A DNA stretch of 64,000 nt, from the IMG/VR virus record IMGVR_UViG_3300048597_000634, positions 141,545 to 205,544 of that record; one strand, given 5' to 3'. Both the position numbers and the translations under genes were made by a program. Within the stretch, counting starts at the first letter, position 1, and each line of letters opens with the position of its first letter. The notes beneath the pieces are model-generated. The model was given only the letters and a program-made list of their open reading frames with translations. It had not been told where the DNA came from and searched no databases. The stretch comes from a virus. This document shows, in pieces, positions 3,789 through 50,386 of this stretch.

Positions 3789-5823
3789 TTAGTGAGCCCA
3801 GACGGGCGCTATAGAATAAGAACAGGCACCTTTGATCTCAGAGCCTAGAGCCTCAAACTGTTTGGTTTGCACGGACTCCATTATCTGCTTAATGGTCTCT
3901 GCTATTTCTATAGCTAGCTTATCGGATGTGAAGGCTAATTCTGTGTATAGCCCATCGTCATTCACTTTGCTGTTGTCCCAGTCTATGGTAGATGTACCAG
4001 GAGAGTATATCAAGATTTCCATTTGATGTTGCGCCCCGCCCGATTCCGACGGGGCTCCTTAGCTTACACTAAGGGTCAGACTATATCATCACCAGCTTAT
4101 GCGCTGGTGCAACCTGTTTCGAGACCTCTTGGTCCCTACTCCCTTGCGGGATAGTCGTTGAACCTTGGTCATGTGGTATGACCCTTGGCTGCTGATTGCC
4201 CTGCTTTAGCGTGGGGGTTCCCAGCAATTAAGGTTGTTTACCCACGACAAAATCTATCGTGCACCTGTCCAATCAGTTGAATATCCTCCTGTGTAAACGT
4301 TGAATGGTTATCAATCCACCGTTGGATTAATATCATGGATTCTTTGGTCTGGGTTGCTGAAATGCTTTGGCATTGTTGTTATCGTAGAGCCGTTTAAACT
4401 CTACTTCCGCTGGTCACCCAACGGGTCAGGTCATATCATCGACTCTAGGAGTCGCCGGGCGCTCTTGGATAATATTATAGTTTGGGTCCATATTATCTGA
4501 CCGTCACACCTTCCTAGGGACTAAAACCCATCCTAGGCTTGGCTCGGTATTGCCTGGCTAGACACCAGGGGTCCACCGAATTCACCCGGTTATCACTTAA
4601 TCATCACTGATTAAGGCCACCCATTAGTTGATGGCGCAATTCACAGCAGCCCGCACAGCGGAATCTCCTTCCTTGCCGCCAGACCTTTCTTCAGCTCGAT
4701 GTTGTTATCGTCAGGCTCTTTATCCTGACTTCTATTGGTTTCCCAATAGTCCAGACTATTTCTTAAGCGTTGCCATTTTGACAACCCTTTCGGGCGCTCG
4801 TGGGGATTATTATTGTTGGAACTCAAATCCCTAGTCGTTGAACCTGACGTAGAACCAAAGTCCTCTACGTATTGGCTTAGCGTTACCATAACCTTCTTAT
4901 AAGCGTTAGGCTTTCACTAAATTCACCCGATTTAAGGTAGGCTAACTATTCACTTTACCCACCGGTGCCGGCCTGTCAACGGGACTATACAAAAGCCCCT
5001 GGCGGCGGCTAAAGCACCATAATTCTCCGCCCAATCATAATACCCAGCGTAAGTTTCGCGATGGTTTTTTACCCAGGACTCAGCGACGTCTAGTTTGACA
5101 TGATTACGCTCACTGATTGACTGGGGTGTGCTTAAGTAAAGCATCAATTGCCCCCGGCTTTCACCGAGGATTAGACTATACCTTTACAATCATTGATTGC
5201 ACTCGCCGTGTTACCCAACCTTAGGGTTGAGTCTCAGAGTCACCATAGTGTCGGCACCTTAGGTTATCGTCAGTCGTTGAACCATTCGCGCCGCTTTCAC
5301 GACGCCCTGGCTGCTGATTGGCATCGACGTTAGTCGGAAGCTTTCCAGCAATTGAGCGAGTTTGTTTTCGCCAACTCTACTTAGCGAAATTGAGCGTCTT
5401 AGCCGTGTCACGGGGTTTACGCTTTTCTCCAGGCTGTAGTTTTCGTACTATTTCATCCCACTCGCTTTCAGGTTTTCCTTCTACTAAGTGAGGATGGGTG
5501 CAGTTAGAACAAGTCCAAGAATGGAGGTCCCCTCTAGGGTTTGTATAGGTAGTTCCGTCGGGCAATGCGAGCTTTTTAGGTAATAATTGCGCTTGAGTCA
5601 TGGCCGGGTCTTTACTAAGCACTGTAGCTACTAAAATTTCCTGGGATGAGTAGTCTAAAGATACTATACTTTTCCCCGACCCATTACCACAGGTAAAACC
5701 ATTACGAGGGTTACTCATAAAGGTAATAACCTGTTCTTCGGTTTGAGGCTCGCTTAATACTACGCCGCCGCCCGTGGGGGCTGGGCGGGTAGTCAGTCTT
5801 CGTTTACGTTTCGGTTGGTTCAT
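3789..5823 (-). CDS. family A DNA polymerase catalytic subunit, split by four group I introns
   Basis: Five exons by my reading: 5383-5823, 4957-5144, 4631-4666, 4256-4370 and 3789-4019. Joined they give 337 codons in frame. The protein starts about 55 residues before motif A (SLDYSSQEILVA), then DLH, motif B (RDTAKTLNFAMLYLS), GRHRWV, RAAVNCAIQS and motif C (GQVHDEILIY). Spacing from motif B to C matches phage T7 and E. coli polymerases residue for residue. Exonuclease and thumb domains are absent, so this is probably one half of a two-gene polymerase; the other half is not in the window. The start overlaps the upstream gene by 20 nt. The 5' end of exon 3 (4666) is the least certain junction; sites at 4675 or 4678 also keep frame. 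A CxxC (WTCSNC) lies between motifs A and B. Confidence 0.85.
4020..4255 (-). ncRNA. group I intron 4 of the polymerase gene (inside motif C, HD^E)
   Basis: 236 nt, no ORF. The upstream exon ends CACGAT and pairs with the internal guide GUCGUG a few bases into the intron (five Watson-Crick pairs plus the diagnostic U-G at the splice site). The intron ends in G, followed by GAA for the catalytic Glu. Core elements P (AATTGCTGG), Q (AATCAGCAGCC), R (GTTCAACGACTA) and S (GATATAGTCTGA) occur in order, with P7 formed by GACTA/TAGTC. Splicing restores VHDEILIY. Confidence 0.85.
4371..4630 (-). ncRNA. group I intron 3 of the polymerase gene
   Basis: 260 nt, no ORF. The exon ends GCCAU and pairs with guide GUGGC 10-14 nt into the intron, with U-G at the junction. 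The intron ends in G. P7 is GGTCA/TGACC rather than the GACTA/TAGTC of its neighbours, so pairing is kept by compensatory change. Splicing joins AAVNCA-I-QSISATQ, restoring exactly 15 residues between the conserved Asn and Met as in E. coli Pol I. Confidence 0.8.
4667..4956 (-). ncRNA. group I intron 2 of the polymerase gene
   Basis: 290 nt. The exon ends GGUGGGU and pairs over seven bases with guide GCCUACC, with U-G at the junction. R (GGTTCAACGACTAG) and S (AAATAGTCTGGAC) form P7 GACTA/TAGTC; Q is divergent (AACGCTAAGCCAA). An 82-codon open frame inside shows no endonuclease motif and looks fortuitous. The 3' splice site is chosen at a G that yields RWVDSAVRAAVN; two other G positions 9 and 12 nt upstream remain possible. 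Confidence 0.75.
5145..5382 (-). ncRNA. group I intron 1 of the polymerase gene (inside motif B)
   Basis: 238 nt, no ORF. The exon ends UUUCGCU and pairs perfectly with guide GGCGAAA (5366-5372). P (CAATTGCTGGAAAG), Q (CAATCAGCAGCC), R (GTTCAACGACTGA) and S (GGTATAGTCTAA) are all clear. It ends in G before ATG CTT TAC, giving KTLNFA-MLYL with the motif B tyrosine at the expected distance from the lysine. Confidence 0.85.
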
Positions 5824-9951: not shown

Positions 9952-12222
9952 TTACTCGTAGTCCCTAAATGCTACACCAATAGGGAATCGTGGCAGACCA
10001 TCATCTGTATAACCATGGTGCTTAATGGTTATTAAGGTTTGTGATTCCGGCGGGTTGTCATAAACTTCCTGCTTCTGTGCTACCGTGCCTTGCATTTTAG
10101 CCTTAAACACCAGACCAATACACGTCGAACACTCAGCTATTAGGTCTTCAACGCCCCGCTGCCCTAACAAGAACCTCTCAAAGACGAACTCATTGGTATC
10201 GTACTCCTTAACCTTCAGTAGGTTGCTAGACCGCTGCCCTTGGTCGTAAGTGCCATTAAGGAGACGGATCATTACACCCTCGTAACCTTCGCTAACGTAG
10301 TGCATGTGAAGCTCCATCACTTCCTCCTTGTTGTCGCAGGTAGAGGTAGGTAGGGCTTTAACATGCTGCCAACTAATAGTGGATGTCAGGCGGCGCACCT
10401 CCAACTCCCGCTCTAGCTGCTTCTGATCGTTGACAATGTCGTAGACCCAGAACTCTAGCTGTAAGGATTGCTCTTGTTGTTTCTTAACAGCAGAGACAAT
10501 CTCTTGGAAGGTTAGCTCTCTAGTGAATATCTCCCCGTCGAGGATGACAGGCTGGGTGAGCTTCTCTTCTAGTTCCTTTTTGATGTGCCCTAGCGTAGTG
10601 TACTTTTTGCCGGTGCGGGACAGGAAAGTAACGGTCTTACCGTCGAACACAGCCAGGGCTCTACAATTGTGAATAACAACGCCGTTAGCGACGTAGTTAT
10701 GATTGTCTTCTACCTCTAGGTCGTACTTAGTGTATGGGGCAGAGCTACGCTTAGCTTTAGTTTTATGAAACTTACTCCAAGCGAACTCGTCTTTTGCGGC
10801 TTGCACGTAGTCTTCCGTAGGGAAGTAATATTTGTACTCTACTCCTTTACAATGGCACTTCCGTAAACTGTTAAGTAAATAAAGAGTGTCTTTAGTGTTG
10901 AACTGTAGGAATATTCCAGAGCAATTAGTGGTGTCGACACGTTTATCCCGTATTTCTGTAGGCGTGCAATGCCACTTTTTCTGAAAGTATTCGACAAACA
11001 CTTTTATCTGGTCGAGAGAGTGCTTATGTGTGGATATACTTAGCACCGGTGTGTTAGGGTTTCCGTTGTTAAAGCTTATACTTCCGTCATCTGCAATCCA
11101 TAGACTTAGAGCTTCTGGGCTCATGTATTTACACATGTTATCGTATGTGATGTGCTTCCTGTGCCCTAGCCGCTTACAGTGCCCTGTAAAGTAGATTAAC
11201 TCGATAGGAAAGTCTGTCTTACTTAATGCGACACTATCAAACCGATAGCCTTTAGACCCATAACCTGTTGTGTATTCGGTACACCTACCATCTAAGTTTA
11301 GAGTCTTAACCTTAAAATCGAATAGCTCTTTATTGGTATGACTAAAAGCTAATCTGTAACTGGTACCGCTACCTCTTTTTTCTATGTTCATTATGCTATC
11401 CCCCAGTAAGGTGCCAAAGACAAGAGACGTTCTATACTCGGAGAAGCAATTTACGTAGATTAAATCTTCCTTCTCATTAAGGTCGCGAGCTTCTTTCCAG
11501 CCTTGGTTGGTAAAGTATTTATGGTTGGCAGTTGTCTTCAATCGTGTACCTGTAGGCAGAGTAACATCTAACCAATCTTTGTACTTAGAGCTTCCGTTAT
11601 TAAACCAATTTGTTATGGGCTTGTACTCAAAGACCTTTTTGGCTTCGTTGTAAGAGAGCACTTCCACCTTCATTTTGGTCTCTACTATCTCTTCAATGCT
11701 TATTAGTCCTTTATTAGTAGAGACTAGAGTTTTACCGTAGACGCAGCCGTCCAATTTGGGCTGCACAAGGCAGCGGTACTTAACTTTATTCCACTTCACG
11801 GACTGGGCTAGCATTGGCTTCCGCATTCCGTTAGCGTCAGTGTTAAAGGTAGGTAGAGCGGCTTCTAAAGCATTCTTTAAATGCGAATAGAGAGTATTCT
11901 CGTAGGAGAAAGCTGACGCGGCTGTTCCTTCTACCCAAGAGATGCCTAGGTCTTCTAAAGACTTGTAGCCCTCGTCTTGCTTCTTCTTCCAGTCGCTGCG
12001 GGCTTCAGACTCGGCTTGTTGTTGGGGTGTCGTGGCGTTACTTCTGTTTAAGTTCTTACCTTCGCTAATGGTCTTGATGTTAACGAGGGGTTTGTCGGTG
12101 CCGTACTGTCCTGAGGTCTTGATGACCTGATACTCGTCGGAGCCGAGGACAGCTTCAGTCTCGATCTCCCAATAGGCTATAGATAGATTCTTTGTGCGCT
12201 TGTAAAGTATTGGTAGTTTCAT
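9952..12222 (-). CDS. ATP-dependent DNA ligase interrupted by an intein
   Basis: 756 codons; 396 aa after intein removal. Extein landmarks: N-terminal YKRTKNLSIAYWEIE domain, VQPKLDG (adenylated Lys156 of motif I) joined after splicing to CRALAVF, FLSRTGK (motif Ia/III region), LDGEIF, EGVMIRLLNG and LLKVKEY (motif V). It would seal nicks in duplex DNA via a ligase-AMP intermediate; the active site exists only after the intein leaves. The start overlaps the DUF1828-like gene by 68 nt, but the YKRT...YWEIE segment argues that this early start is real. It is transcribed with the small-gene array upstream. Confidence 0.9.
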   Translation of the reverse strand: MKLPILYKRTKNLSIAYWEIETEAVLGSDEYQVIKTSGQYGTDKPLVNIKTISEGKNLNRSNATTPQQQAESEARSDWKKKQDEGYKSLEDLGISWVEGTAASAFSYENTLYSHLKNALEAALPTFNTDANGMRKPMLAQSVKWNKVKYRCLVQPKLDGCVYGKTLVSTNKGLISIEEIVETKMKVEVLSYNEAKKVFEYKPITNWFNNGSSKYKDWLDVTLPTGTRLKTTANHKYFTNQGWKEARDLNEKEDLIYVNCFSEYRTSLVFGTLLGDSIMNIEKRGSGTSYRLAFSHTNKELFDFKVKTLNLDGRCTEYTTGYGSKGYRFDSVALSKTDFPIELIYFTGHCKRLGHRKHITYDNMCKYMSPEALSLWIADDGSISFNNGNPNTPVLSISTHKHSLDQIKVFVEYFQKKWHCTPTEIRDKRVDTTNCSGIFLQFNTKDTLYLLNSLRKCHCKGVEYKYYFPTEDYVQAAKDEFAWSKFHKTKAKRSSAPYTKYDLEVEDNHNYVANGVVIHNCRALAVFDGKTVTFLSRTGKKYTTLGHIKKELEEKLTQPVILDGEIFTRELTFQEIVSAVKKQQEQSLQLEFWVYDIVNDQKQLERELEVRRLTSTISWQHVKALPTSTCDNKEEVMELHMHYVSEGYEGVMIRLLNGTYDQGQRSSNLLKVKEYDTNEFVFERFLLGQRGVEDLIAECSTCIGLVFKAKMQGTVAQKQEVYDNPPESQTLITIKHHGYTDDGLPRFPIGVAFRDYE
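10666..11745 (-). mobile_element. intein with LAGLIDADG endonuclease in the ligase KxDG motif
   Basis: 360 residues, precursor positions 160-519. The N-end starts with Cys1 (CVYGKTLVSTNKG, block A), then a TANHKYFT block B with the splicing His. The endonuclease motifs are FGTLLGDSIM and LSLWIADDGSI. The C-end shows YDLEVEDNHNYVANGVVIHN followed by Cys+1. All splicing residues (Cys1, block B His, penultimate His, Asn, Cys+1) are present, so splicing should be active. Both LAGLIDADG-type motifs keep acidic residues, so homing may also be active. Confidence 0.92.
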
Positions 12223-48592: not shown

Positions 48593-49009
48593 TTAGATTG
48601 GATTAACCACTCTAGGGCGCAACGGCTGAGCCCCTATCAACTCGGACATTACGTCGTTGCTGAATACTTTTAGGCAGCAATTTAATGCCCCGTTAACGTC
48701 TGCGTTAAGCAACACACCAGTGGCAGTCTTAAACAACCCACGCTTAACACGACGACCTACATAGGACTTATGCTTCTTGACAGGTTCTAGGTCATAAGCA
48801 GAGCATTTGCTGGTGTAGCTTTCCTCTGTCTCTATTACCTTGATACCTACAAGCGCCGCCTTATATGTGATTTGGTCTATCAGTTTACGGTGGGGAATTT
48901 GAGTAAACTGCTGGTTGTTACGCTTACCAATGTTAATCTCTTGTTTCCACAAGCTGTTGTAGCCCACTACAAGCGTCGTTACTAGGTTTTCGACACAGTA
49001 GTCGATTAC
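48593..49009 (-). pseudogene. C-terminal piece of old tnpB
   Basis: VIDYCVENLVTTLVVGYNSL, WKQEINIGKRNNQQF and ETEESYTSKCSA (RuvC-II region), then YVGRRVKRGLF and LNADVNGALNCC (RuvC-III). Lacks the RuvC-I part. Ends at the left edge of IS-B (TTAC at 49006-49009). Confidence 0.7.
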
Positions 49010-50358
49010 CTAAGAATTGGGTTTAAAGCCTAGCCCTTCAGGGCTACTTTTATCTGCGTCTTTATGTGATAAGATGAGAGGATGTTAGTAAGAGAAGCCA
49101 AGCTATTGAATGGAGCGCAGGGGCAATATATCGCCCTTGATGAAGCCATTCGCACCGCACAGTTCATTCGGAACAAGTGCGTTAAATATTGGATGGACAA
49201 CACAAGTGTGGGTAAAGCAACTCTGTATGTCCACTCTAAAGACCTAGCTAAAGAGTTTGAGTTTGCTAAAAAGCTTAACTCTACTGCTCGACAAGCTAGT
49301 GCTGAACGCGCTTGGACTTCTATCTCTAACTTTTATAGCCGTTGCCGCAAGGGTGAAAAGAAGAAAGGCTACCCTCAGTTTAAGAAGCATTGTCGCTCTG
49401 TGGAGTACAAGCAGTCAGGGTGGAAGCTATCAGGTGATTGTATGCAAATCACATTCACTGATGGATTTAACGCAGGGACTTTCTCTATATTCTGTAATGC
49501 AGAGACAAGGGAAGACTTGCATACACTAAAGATTAACAGGGTACGTGTAGTCTGTCGGGCTGATGGCTACTATGCCCAGTTTCTATTCGATGCCGACCGC
49601 AAGGAACAAGGAGTGTATACAGGTAACGTTATTGGATTGGACTTAGGGTTGAAATACTTCTACAAAGACCAAAACGATAACGCTGTTGTTTATCCCCAGT
49701 ATCTACGGAAAGCAGAGAAGCGTCTTAAGCGACAACAGCGGCGGTTAAGTAGGAAGTTTAAGAAAGGGCTTAAGCCCCAATCTAATAACTACCACAAGCA
49801 AAGAAAACGACTAGGTAAAACCCATCTTAAAGTCCAACGCCAACGTAAAGACTGGAGCATTAAGCAAGCTCGGTGCGTGGTAATGTCTAACGACATTGTG
49901 GTGTACGAAGACTTAAAGATAGGGAACATGGTTAAGAATCATTCCTTGGCTAAGTCAATCTCCGATGCTAGTTGGTATCAATTCACTCAATGGTTAGACT
50001 ACTACGGCAAGATTTGGGACAAGGTAGTTGTATCGGTAAATCCCGCATACACTAGCCAAGATTGTCCCAATTGTGGTCACAGAGTCAAAAAGACATTAAG
50101 TACCAGGACACATTCTTGTCCCAGTTGTGGATTTGAAGCCTGTCGCGATACTGTGGCGGCAATGAACATCCTTAAAAAGGGCATGAAGTTGTTAGGTATT
50201 GAGTGGCAAAACAGTACGCAAGGGCATTGCGAAACTGGGGAGAAATCCCGAACGACTGAGGAGATAATCGCCTCTGCTATAGATAGGCAACTTGAAATAG
50301 TAAGTGATGTCGATGAATCAGTAACAAGAATCCCCGCCCTAAAGGGCGAGGAGCATGT
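49010..50358 (+). mobile_element. IS605-family element with tnpB only (IS-B)
   Basis: Left end: flanking TTAC, then CTAAGAATTGGG and an AGCCCTTCAGGGCT hairpin (49031-49044). Right end: hairpin CCCCGCCCTAAAGGGCGAGG and TCAA. TTAC/TCAA are the cleavage sites of IS608-type elements. If the right end is instead taken at 50356 the old tnpB frame joins precisely, so the end is uncertain by 2 nt. There is no tnpA; it would need a helper. The right end should also be the 3' part of a guide (omega) RNA. Confidence 0.7.
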
Positions 50359-50386
50359 CAAGCTTCCAGTCTTTGTGTGCGGCTAA
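49082..50386 (+). CDS. tnpB: TnpB RNA-guided endonuclease
   Basis: 434 aa. MLVREAKLLNGAQGQYIALD opening, RuvC-I IGLDLGLKYF, RuvC-II VVYEDLKIGNM, zinc ribbon CPNC...CPSC and RuvC-III FEACRDTVAAMNILKK, where DRDxNAA is changed to CRDxVAA but the catalytic Asp remains. TnpB cuts DNA guided by RNA from the element's right end and promotes transposon retention. The last nine codons come from sequence beyond the element, so the natural end was probably nearer the hairpin. Pl strand gene amid minus-strand genes. Confidence 0.85.
   Translation: MLVREAKLLNGAQGQYIALDEAIRTAQFIRNKCVKYWMDNTSVGKATLYVHSKDLAKEFEFAKKLNSTARQASAERAWTSISNFYSRCRKGEKKKGYPQFKKHCRSVEYKQSGWKLSGDCMQITFTDGFNAGTFSIFCNAETREDLHTLKINRVRVVCRADGYYAQFLFDADRKEQGVYTGNVIGLDLGLKYFYKDQNDNAVVYPQYLRKAEKRLKRQQRRLSRKFKKGLKPQSNNYHKQRKRLGKTHLKVQRQRKDWSIKQARCVVMSNDIVVYEDLKIGNMVKNHSLAKSISDASWYQFTQWLDYYGKIWDKVVVSVNPAYTSQDCPNCGHRVKKTLSTRTHSCPSCGFEACRDTVAAMNILKKGMKLLGIEWQNSTQGHCETGEKSRTTEEIIASAIDRQLEIVSDVDESVTRIPALKGEEHVKLPVFVCG

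Follow-up and report, generated by a model that had tools for sequence, protein, structure and literature searches.

Organization of the ligase gene

The window (the whole stretch of 64,000 nucleotides that was analyzed, part of a phage record of 205,544 bases) contained on its minus strand a gene for an ATP-dependent DNA ligase that was interrupted within its adenylation domain by an intein. A search of the whole record yielded one ATP-dependent ligase and one intein. The features of the gene are as follows:

9952..12222, minus strand: ATP-dependent DNA ligase precursor, 756 aa, a single ORF without internal stop
11746..12222, minus strand: N-extein, residues 1-159, ending in VQPKLDG (sequence and alignments)
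11746..11757, minus strand: KLDG of ligase motif I, residues 156-159, invariant in alignments A1 and A8
10666..11745, minus strand: intein, 360 aa, Cys160-Asn519 (profiles and fold model)
11743..11745, minus strand: Cys1 (Cys160), first nucleophile, invariant in eight ligase inteins
11521..11532, minus strand: block B TANH (TxxH), residues 231-234, with T72 and H75 of the intein invariant
10666..10671, minus strand: penultimate His and terminal Asn, H518 and N519 (H359 and N360 of the intein), invariant in eight inteins
9952..10665, minus strand: C-extein, residues 520-756 and stop, the rest of the adenylation domain and the OB domain (domain matches)
10657..10665, minus strand: CRA, the first three C-extein codons (Cys+1 nucleophile, motif I Arg and Ala), VRC in intein-free sister ligases

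The C-extein began with CRALAVFDG, residue 520 being the Cys. The ligase domain PF01068 was matched by the precursor with 75.1 bits (7.8e-21, profile positions 32-204), and by the 396-aa protein obtained in silico after removal of the intein (residue 159 joined to 520) with 96.0 bits over profile positions 1-204. This gain in score and the filled profile place the joint between KLDG and CRA, where the initial annotation had put it as an exact one. Furthermore, the extein halves showed no gap at the joint when aligned with relatives. The spliced form also matched OB_2 (28.3 bits, against a cut-off of 28) and phrog_114 (9e-51), and carried what identifies an ATP-dependent DNA ligase, namely the motif I KxDGxR, a full adenylation domain and an OB domain. 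The nucleotidyl-transfer motif is indeed split as had been proposed, with K156 in KLDG, the intein at residues 160-519 and then CRA. Lys156 is the nucleotidyl-transfer lysine, as is well established for this enzyme family. The motif I residues Lys156 and Arg521 are divided between the two exteins, and the unspliced precursor should therefore be inactive. An AlphaFold (AF2) model of the whole precursor was mediocre (pLDDT 69.5, pTM 0.43) and was left out of the conclusions.

Splicing domain of the intein

The intein starts with CVYGKT and ends with VVIHN, and the coordinates and length of 360 residues given in the initial annotation proved exact. The precursor matched PF14890 (Intein_splicing) at 2.5e-18 and the N- and C-terminal splicing region profiles TIGR01445 and TIGR01443, both above their cut-offs (6.3e-9 for TIGR01443). 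The catalytic residues for splicing, which had been described as intact, were all present: Cys1, TxxH and the terminal His-Asn did not vary across the eight rows of intein alignment A10, and Cys520 occupied position +1. The AF2 model of the intein was confident (mean pLDDT 90.7). Its best Foldseek matches were PI-PfuI, TliVMA and I-SceI, and the matches supporting a Hint fold included the PI-PfuI, TliVMA, Mtu RecA and Ssp DnaB inteins. With Cys1, TxxH, His-Asn, Cys+1 and the Hint fold together, positions 10666-11745 are confirmed as encoding a class 1 intein in ligase motif I by sequence and fold model, and splicing is predicted. The ligase ORF in the window was contiguous, with no split-intein arrangement. 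A group I intron was rejected as the type of insert, as Rfam introns were located only at 4057-5392 and none at 10666-11745.

Endonuclease domain

The central part of the intein was predicted to encode a homing endonuclease:

10831..11448, minus strand: LAGLIDADG_2 (I-SceI-type) homing endonuclease domain, intein residues ~100-305 (profile and fold)
11398..11400, minus strand: first LAGLIDADG catalytic acid, D116 of the intein, in FGTLLGD, aligned to the LGD motif of I-SceI
11086..11088, minus strand: second LAGLIDADG catalytic acid, D220 of the intein, in LSLWIADD, aligned to the MDD motif of I-SceI

PF03161 (LAGLIDADG_2) was matched in the precursor at 1.9e-15. The domain thus has the two motifs of the LAGLIDADG_2 or I-SceI type, with D116 and D220 as their acids, and both acids were invariant in all eight inteins of alignment A10. 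I-SceI, a yeast mitochondrial group I intron endonuclease, has the same endonuclease fold and both acids (profile match at E ~1e-13; TM-score 0.71, normalised on I-SceI); however, it is free-standing and derives from an intron, whereas the endonuclease in the window is nested in an intein and shares ~16% identity with it. Conservation relative to the two nearest inteins was 54-55% for the endonuclease, 49-52% for the N-terminal splicing part and 40% for the linker. The endonuclease is about as conserved as the splicing part and more so than the linker, and thus does not have the look of decay. The intein of the window is genuine and appears to be an active homing element.

Other inteins at the same ligase site

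Searches of IMG/VR by junctions (KLDG-C and HN-C-R), by the intein and by C-exteins identified, at the same KxDG/C position (the slash marks the joint), at least eight additional contiguous inteins and at least three split ligases; these counts are minimum values. The contiguous inteins were those of L029 (identical to L110 and L111), L030, L055 (identical to L113) and L034, obtained in the junction search, those of L109, L112 and L114/L115, which matched the intein query, and that of L238, which matched the C-extein query. Only intein-free ligases were among the matches of a narrower junction search, no ligase intein was found in the genome contigs collection, and no match in the PLSDB plasmids covered a ligase together with an intein.

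In the split ligases (L031, L033 and L120), the ligase is divided over two genes, each carrying half an intein at this position, with a nuclease gene located between them (L031, 2866-3978; L033, 3066-3950; L120, 4336-5277), giving the order ligase-N/Int-N, nuclease, Int-C/ligase-C. The motif reads KFNG in L120. All three nucleases were assigned to phage families that carry a homing endonuclease annotation, and those of L031 and L033 match DUF7487; among solved structures their sole match was Vsr, and it was weak (E ~0.26). The gene anatomy shows that split inteins accompanied by a free-standing Vsr-like nuclease gene also occupy the KxDG/C site in other phages. The ligases of L033 and L034 shared just 18-24% identity with the others, indicating that different ligase types were struck at one codon. 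With an insert at the same point in at least 11 other phage ligases from public metagenomes, the active site is a repeated target and not a one-off.

Probable transfer of the intein between ligases

Inteins closely related to that of the window (31-53%) were all located in ligases at the KxDG/C site, and the next relatives (24-26%) in RNA ligase and RecA. Eight contiguous ligase inteins formed one clade in the intein tree (support 100/99) with L034 outside, and a single clade of all ligase inteins including L034 had a p-AU of 0.30. Between the window and L055, the inteins were 53.5% identical and the ligase cores 34.4%; the corresponding values for L112 were 53.2% and 35.8%. The higher identity of the intein in these two pairs was reversed in none of 2000 bootstraps. 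With 53% identity between the window intein and its nearest relative but only 34% between their ligases, movement of the intein is indicated. The nearest kin of the window ligase, L121 (64% aa) and L007 (51%), were intein-free. The host ligases were scattered as if at random: the 10 carriers among 137 ligases required 10 state changes, and shuffled placement gave 8-10, in a census that is biased because several carriers were among the queries (outside the query rows, two carriers occurred in ~125). Conflict between extein and intein trees was modest when carriers alone were compared (AU p 0.03 to 0.13).

Extein residues at positions +1 to +3

Six of eight contiguous carriers read CRA at positions +1 to +3, the others CRC and CRS; carriers with CRC, CRS, CRM and SRC exist. 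In 127 intein-free ligases, VRC was found in 40 and CRA in one, and Cys+1 in three, with Val, Met, His, Leu and Ile among the residues at the variable +1 position. The intein-free ligase of L222 reads KLDG-CRA and is a candidate for precise intein loss. Across independent sister pairs, a nucleophile at +1 accompanied the intein in eight of nine, the opposite being seen in none (p ~0.008). The initial annotation had held that a different sequence at KLDGCRA in a close homologue lacking the intein would refute it. Such homologues do exist, as L121, L122 and L007 read K[YL]DGVRC, but they do not refute the intein, because +1 is variable in empty ligases and Cys tracks the intein across the independent sister pairs.

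The closest pair, L030 with the intein and L247 without it, shared 86.6% nucleotide identity. Positions -24 to +9 of this pair held 13 mismatches in 33, against 4.5 expected from the mean, and 5 of 1056 windows of the alignment were as high. Only two of the first nine C-extein bases matched, while 25 of the next 27 agreed, and VRC was replaced by CRA. The same residue swap was seen in L055/L166 and in window/L121, although the local excess of mismatches was significant only in L030/L247, being masked by background divergence in the other two pairs.

Class 1 splicing needs Cys, Ser or Thr at +1. The association of Cys+1 with inteins is thus demanded by chemistry and does not by itself prove co-conversion, for which the shared Ala+3 is the stronger indication. 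On the other hand, with Val at +1 an intein would be unable to splice in the class 1 manner, and the nucleophile would have to arrive with the insertion. The +1 nucleophile therefore appears to have been brought by the intein, and co-conversion of a short tract is the simplest reading of these sequences.

Proposed mechanism and alternative explanations

The insert is very probably a mobile class 1 intein with an I-SceI-type LAGLIDADG endonuclease, residing in motif I of a phage ligase and combining splicing, homing and carry-over of its flank. As its residues and fold suggest, Cys160 would attack the Gly159-Cys160 bond, the chain would be transferred to Cys520, and cyclization of Asn519 would join KLDG to CRA to release the 396-aa ligase. 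The catalytic acids and the phylogeny suggest that the endonuclease would cut intein-free ligase genes at the conserved codon run, and that repair of the cut would then copy the intein into the ligase gene. Successful transfers would bring a short downstream stretch of extein along. Most recipients have Val or Met at +1 and could not support splicing, so that transfers must carry downstream extein; this carry-over would explain why carriers read CR(A) where their sisters read VRC.

An inherited intein that splices without homing, its endonuclease decaying, would give the same patchy distribution through repeated precise losses from occupied ancestors. Precise loss would leave intein-free ligases with Cys+1, and these do occur (CRC in KLEP7, CRM in L032 and L227, and CRA in L222), the KLEP7 ligase being sister to the carriers. 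However, Cys+1 is rare among intein-free ligases (3/127), conservation of the endonuclease matches that of the splicing domain and exceeds that of the linker, and the intein of the window is closer to its nearest relatives than the ligase is, all of which makes such a history improbable. Selection for efficient splicing after insertion, in place of co-conversion of donor flanks, might likewise account for Cys+1 and Ala+3, since a +1 nucleophile is mechanistically required, Cys+3 might compete as a nucleophile so that its loss could be selected, and C, S or M was retained at +3 in some carriers. Against this, an intein next to Val would mean no splicing and a dead ligase, so that the +1 change must accompany insertion. 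Furthermore, the differences in L030/L247 are concentrated in the first nine C-extein bases (7/9), CRA is shared by 6/8 contiguous carriers of diverged lineages and found in 1/127 empty sites, and a flanking Pro was converted to Ser together with the MCM intein (PMC10643990). Adaptation after insertion is therefore considered unlikely.

Two further explanations concern the nature of the element itself. An insert at this site interrupts the catalytic motif, so that ligase activity necessarily depends on splicing, and the intein could persist in the active site as a regulatory switch that keeps the ligase inactive until conditional splicing is triggered. However, no condition-sensing feature was found in the intein, its presence is scattered with most relatives lacking it, and a preference for conserved residues is expected of any homing intein (PMC2814812), so that a switch is very improbable. 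Weak PT-HINT and Hint profile matches would allow for a non-intein Hint-domain element (BIL or Hog-type) whose exteins are cleaved and not joined, but the intein-specific profiles were far stronger, the terminal HN/C and the endonuclease in a loop are intein features, and the flanking segments together make up a single enzyme domain that aligns continuously with relatives across the joint. The chance of such an element is negligible. A mobile homing intein with carry-over of its flank is thus the preferred explanation.

A broader proposal, for and against which we see about equal chances, is that in phage ATP-dependent ligases motif I serves as a hub for repeated invasion by contiguous inteins with an I-SceI-type nuclease and by split inteins with a Vsr-like nuclease, that the contiguous kind rewrites VRC to CRA through a tract of ~9 bases or more, and that intein-free CRx ligases mark past occupation.

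Relation to known inteins

The initial annotation had considered ligase inteins to be rare. Soucy et al. (2014, PMC4071816) reported an intein in the ATP-dependent DNA ligase I of one haloarchaeon as new, which agrees with rarity, while the at least 11 further viral loci at the same site do not. The haloarchaeal allele resembles that of the window in its host gene, an ATP-dependent DNA ligase gene, but it comes from one haloarchaeon. No publication on a phage DNA ligase intein was found in a search that reached neither InBase nor most subscription papers. It is established that inteins favor the most highly conserved positions (PMC2814812). Phage LAGLIDADG_2 inteins in the DNA polymerase of Gostya9/smaug, the RNA ligase of KLEP7 and the RecA of L117/L118 have the same domain layout and a length of ~350-370 aa with 22-28% similarity; they differ in host gene and site, and in the intein tree those of RNA ligase and RecA are placed outside the 100/99 clade. 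The window intein is a known kind of element and belongs, to the extent covered by these comparisons, to a new allele family.

Fractured genes with split inteins were reportedly described by Dassa et al. 2009. The split ligases of L031, L033 and L120 are alike in their arrangement at KxDG, whereas the window has a contiguous intein with an internal LAGLIDADG endonuclease. Such fractured genes are attributed to Dassa et al. 2009 in PMC10448857. The MCM intein of Haloarchaea, for which co-conversion of the flanking Pro to Ser was described as occasional (PMC10643990), offers a likeness at +1, as invasion there also replaced the adjoining extein residue by one that can serve as nucleophile. At the ligase site, in contrast, almost all of the acquisitions observed have a +1 residue different from that of their intein-free sisters.

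The KLDG site, within the catalytic motif of an enzyme widespread among phages, is recurrently occupied by inteins. Pairs of occupied and empty sites occur naturally, and make it a clean natural system for the study of +1 co-conversion. With pairs such as L030/L247 (87% identical), it is testable how an intein enters a site with Val or Met at +1. The clade also comprises contiguous and split inteins with Gly at -1 and Cys at +1, as well as I-SceI-type nucleases with related targets, and may be useful for work on splicing and nucleases.

Other elements in the record and in related loci

Three group I introns (Rfam RF00028) were located on the minus strand of the window at 4057-4284, 4732-4988 and 5152-5392 in a family A DNA polymerase gene, and none was found elsewhere in the 205,544-base record. 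The first exon ORF of the polymerase (5377-5823) starts just ahead of motif A and stops at KTLNFAK; these limits indicate that the gene is in pieces, with its N-terminal part not adjacent. An IS605-type TnpB (49082-50386, plus strand) was 75% identical to a Nostoc plasmid TnpB and adjoined a second, truncated TnpB-like fragment (48593-48967, minus strand), which suggests a cyanobacterial host for the phage.

Related inteins were present in phage RNA ligases (L003, 1141-3264; L116, 3578-5755; L119, 2-1597), with a GEWAG/C junction in L003 and L116. A large ORF of a 484-kb phage (L005, 4582-7104) apparently contained a tandem series of small Hint elements, two or more of them HN-terminated, and adjoined a gene with a LAGLIDADG_2 intein. 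An intein-like C-junction, HEFIANGIVVHN/CDELAAW, was found in a recurring viral protein of ~750 aa, possibly the large terminase (L035, L039, L040 and many more up to L098), and was very frequent among the IMG/VR matches listed.
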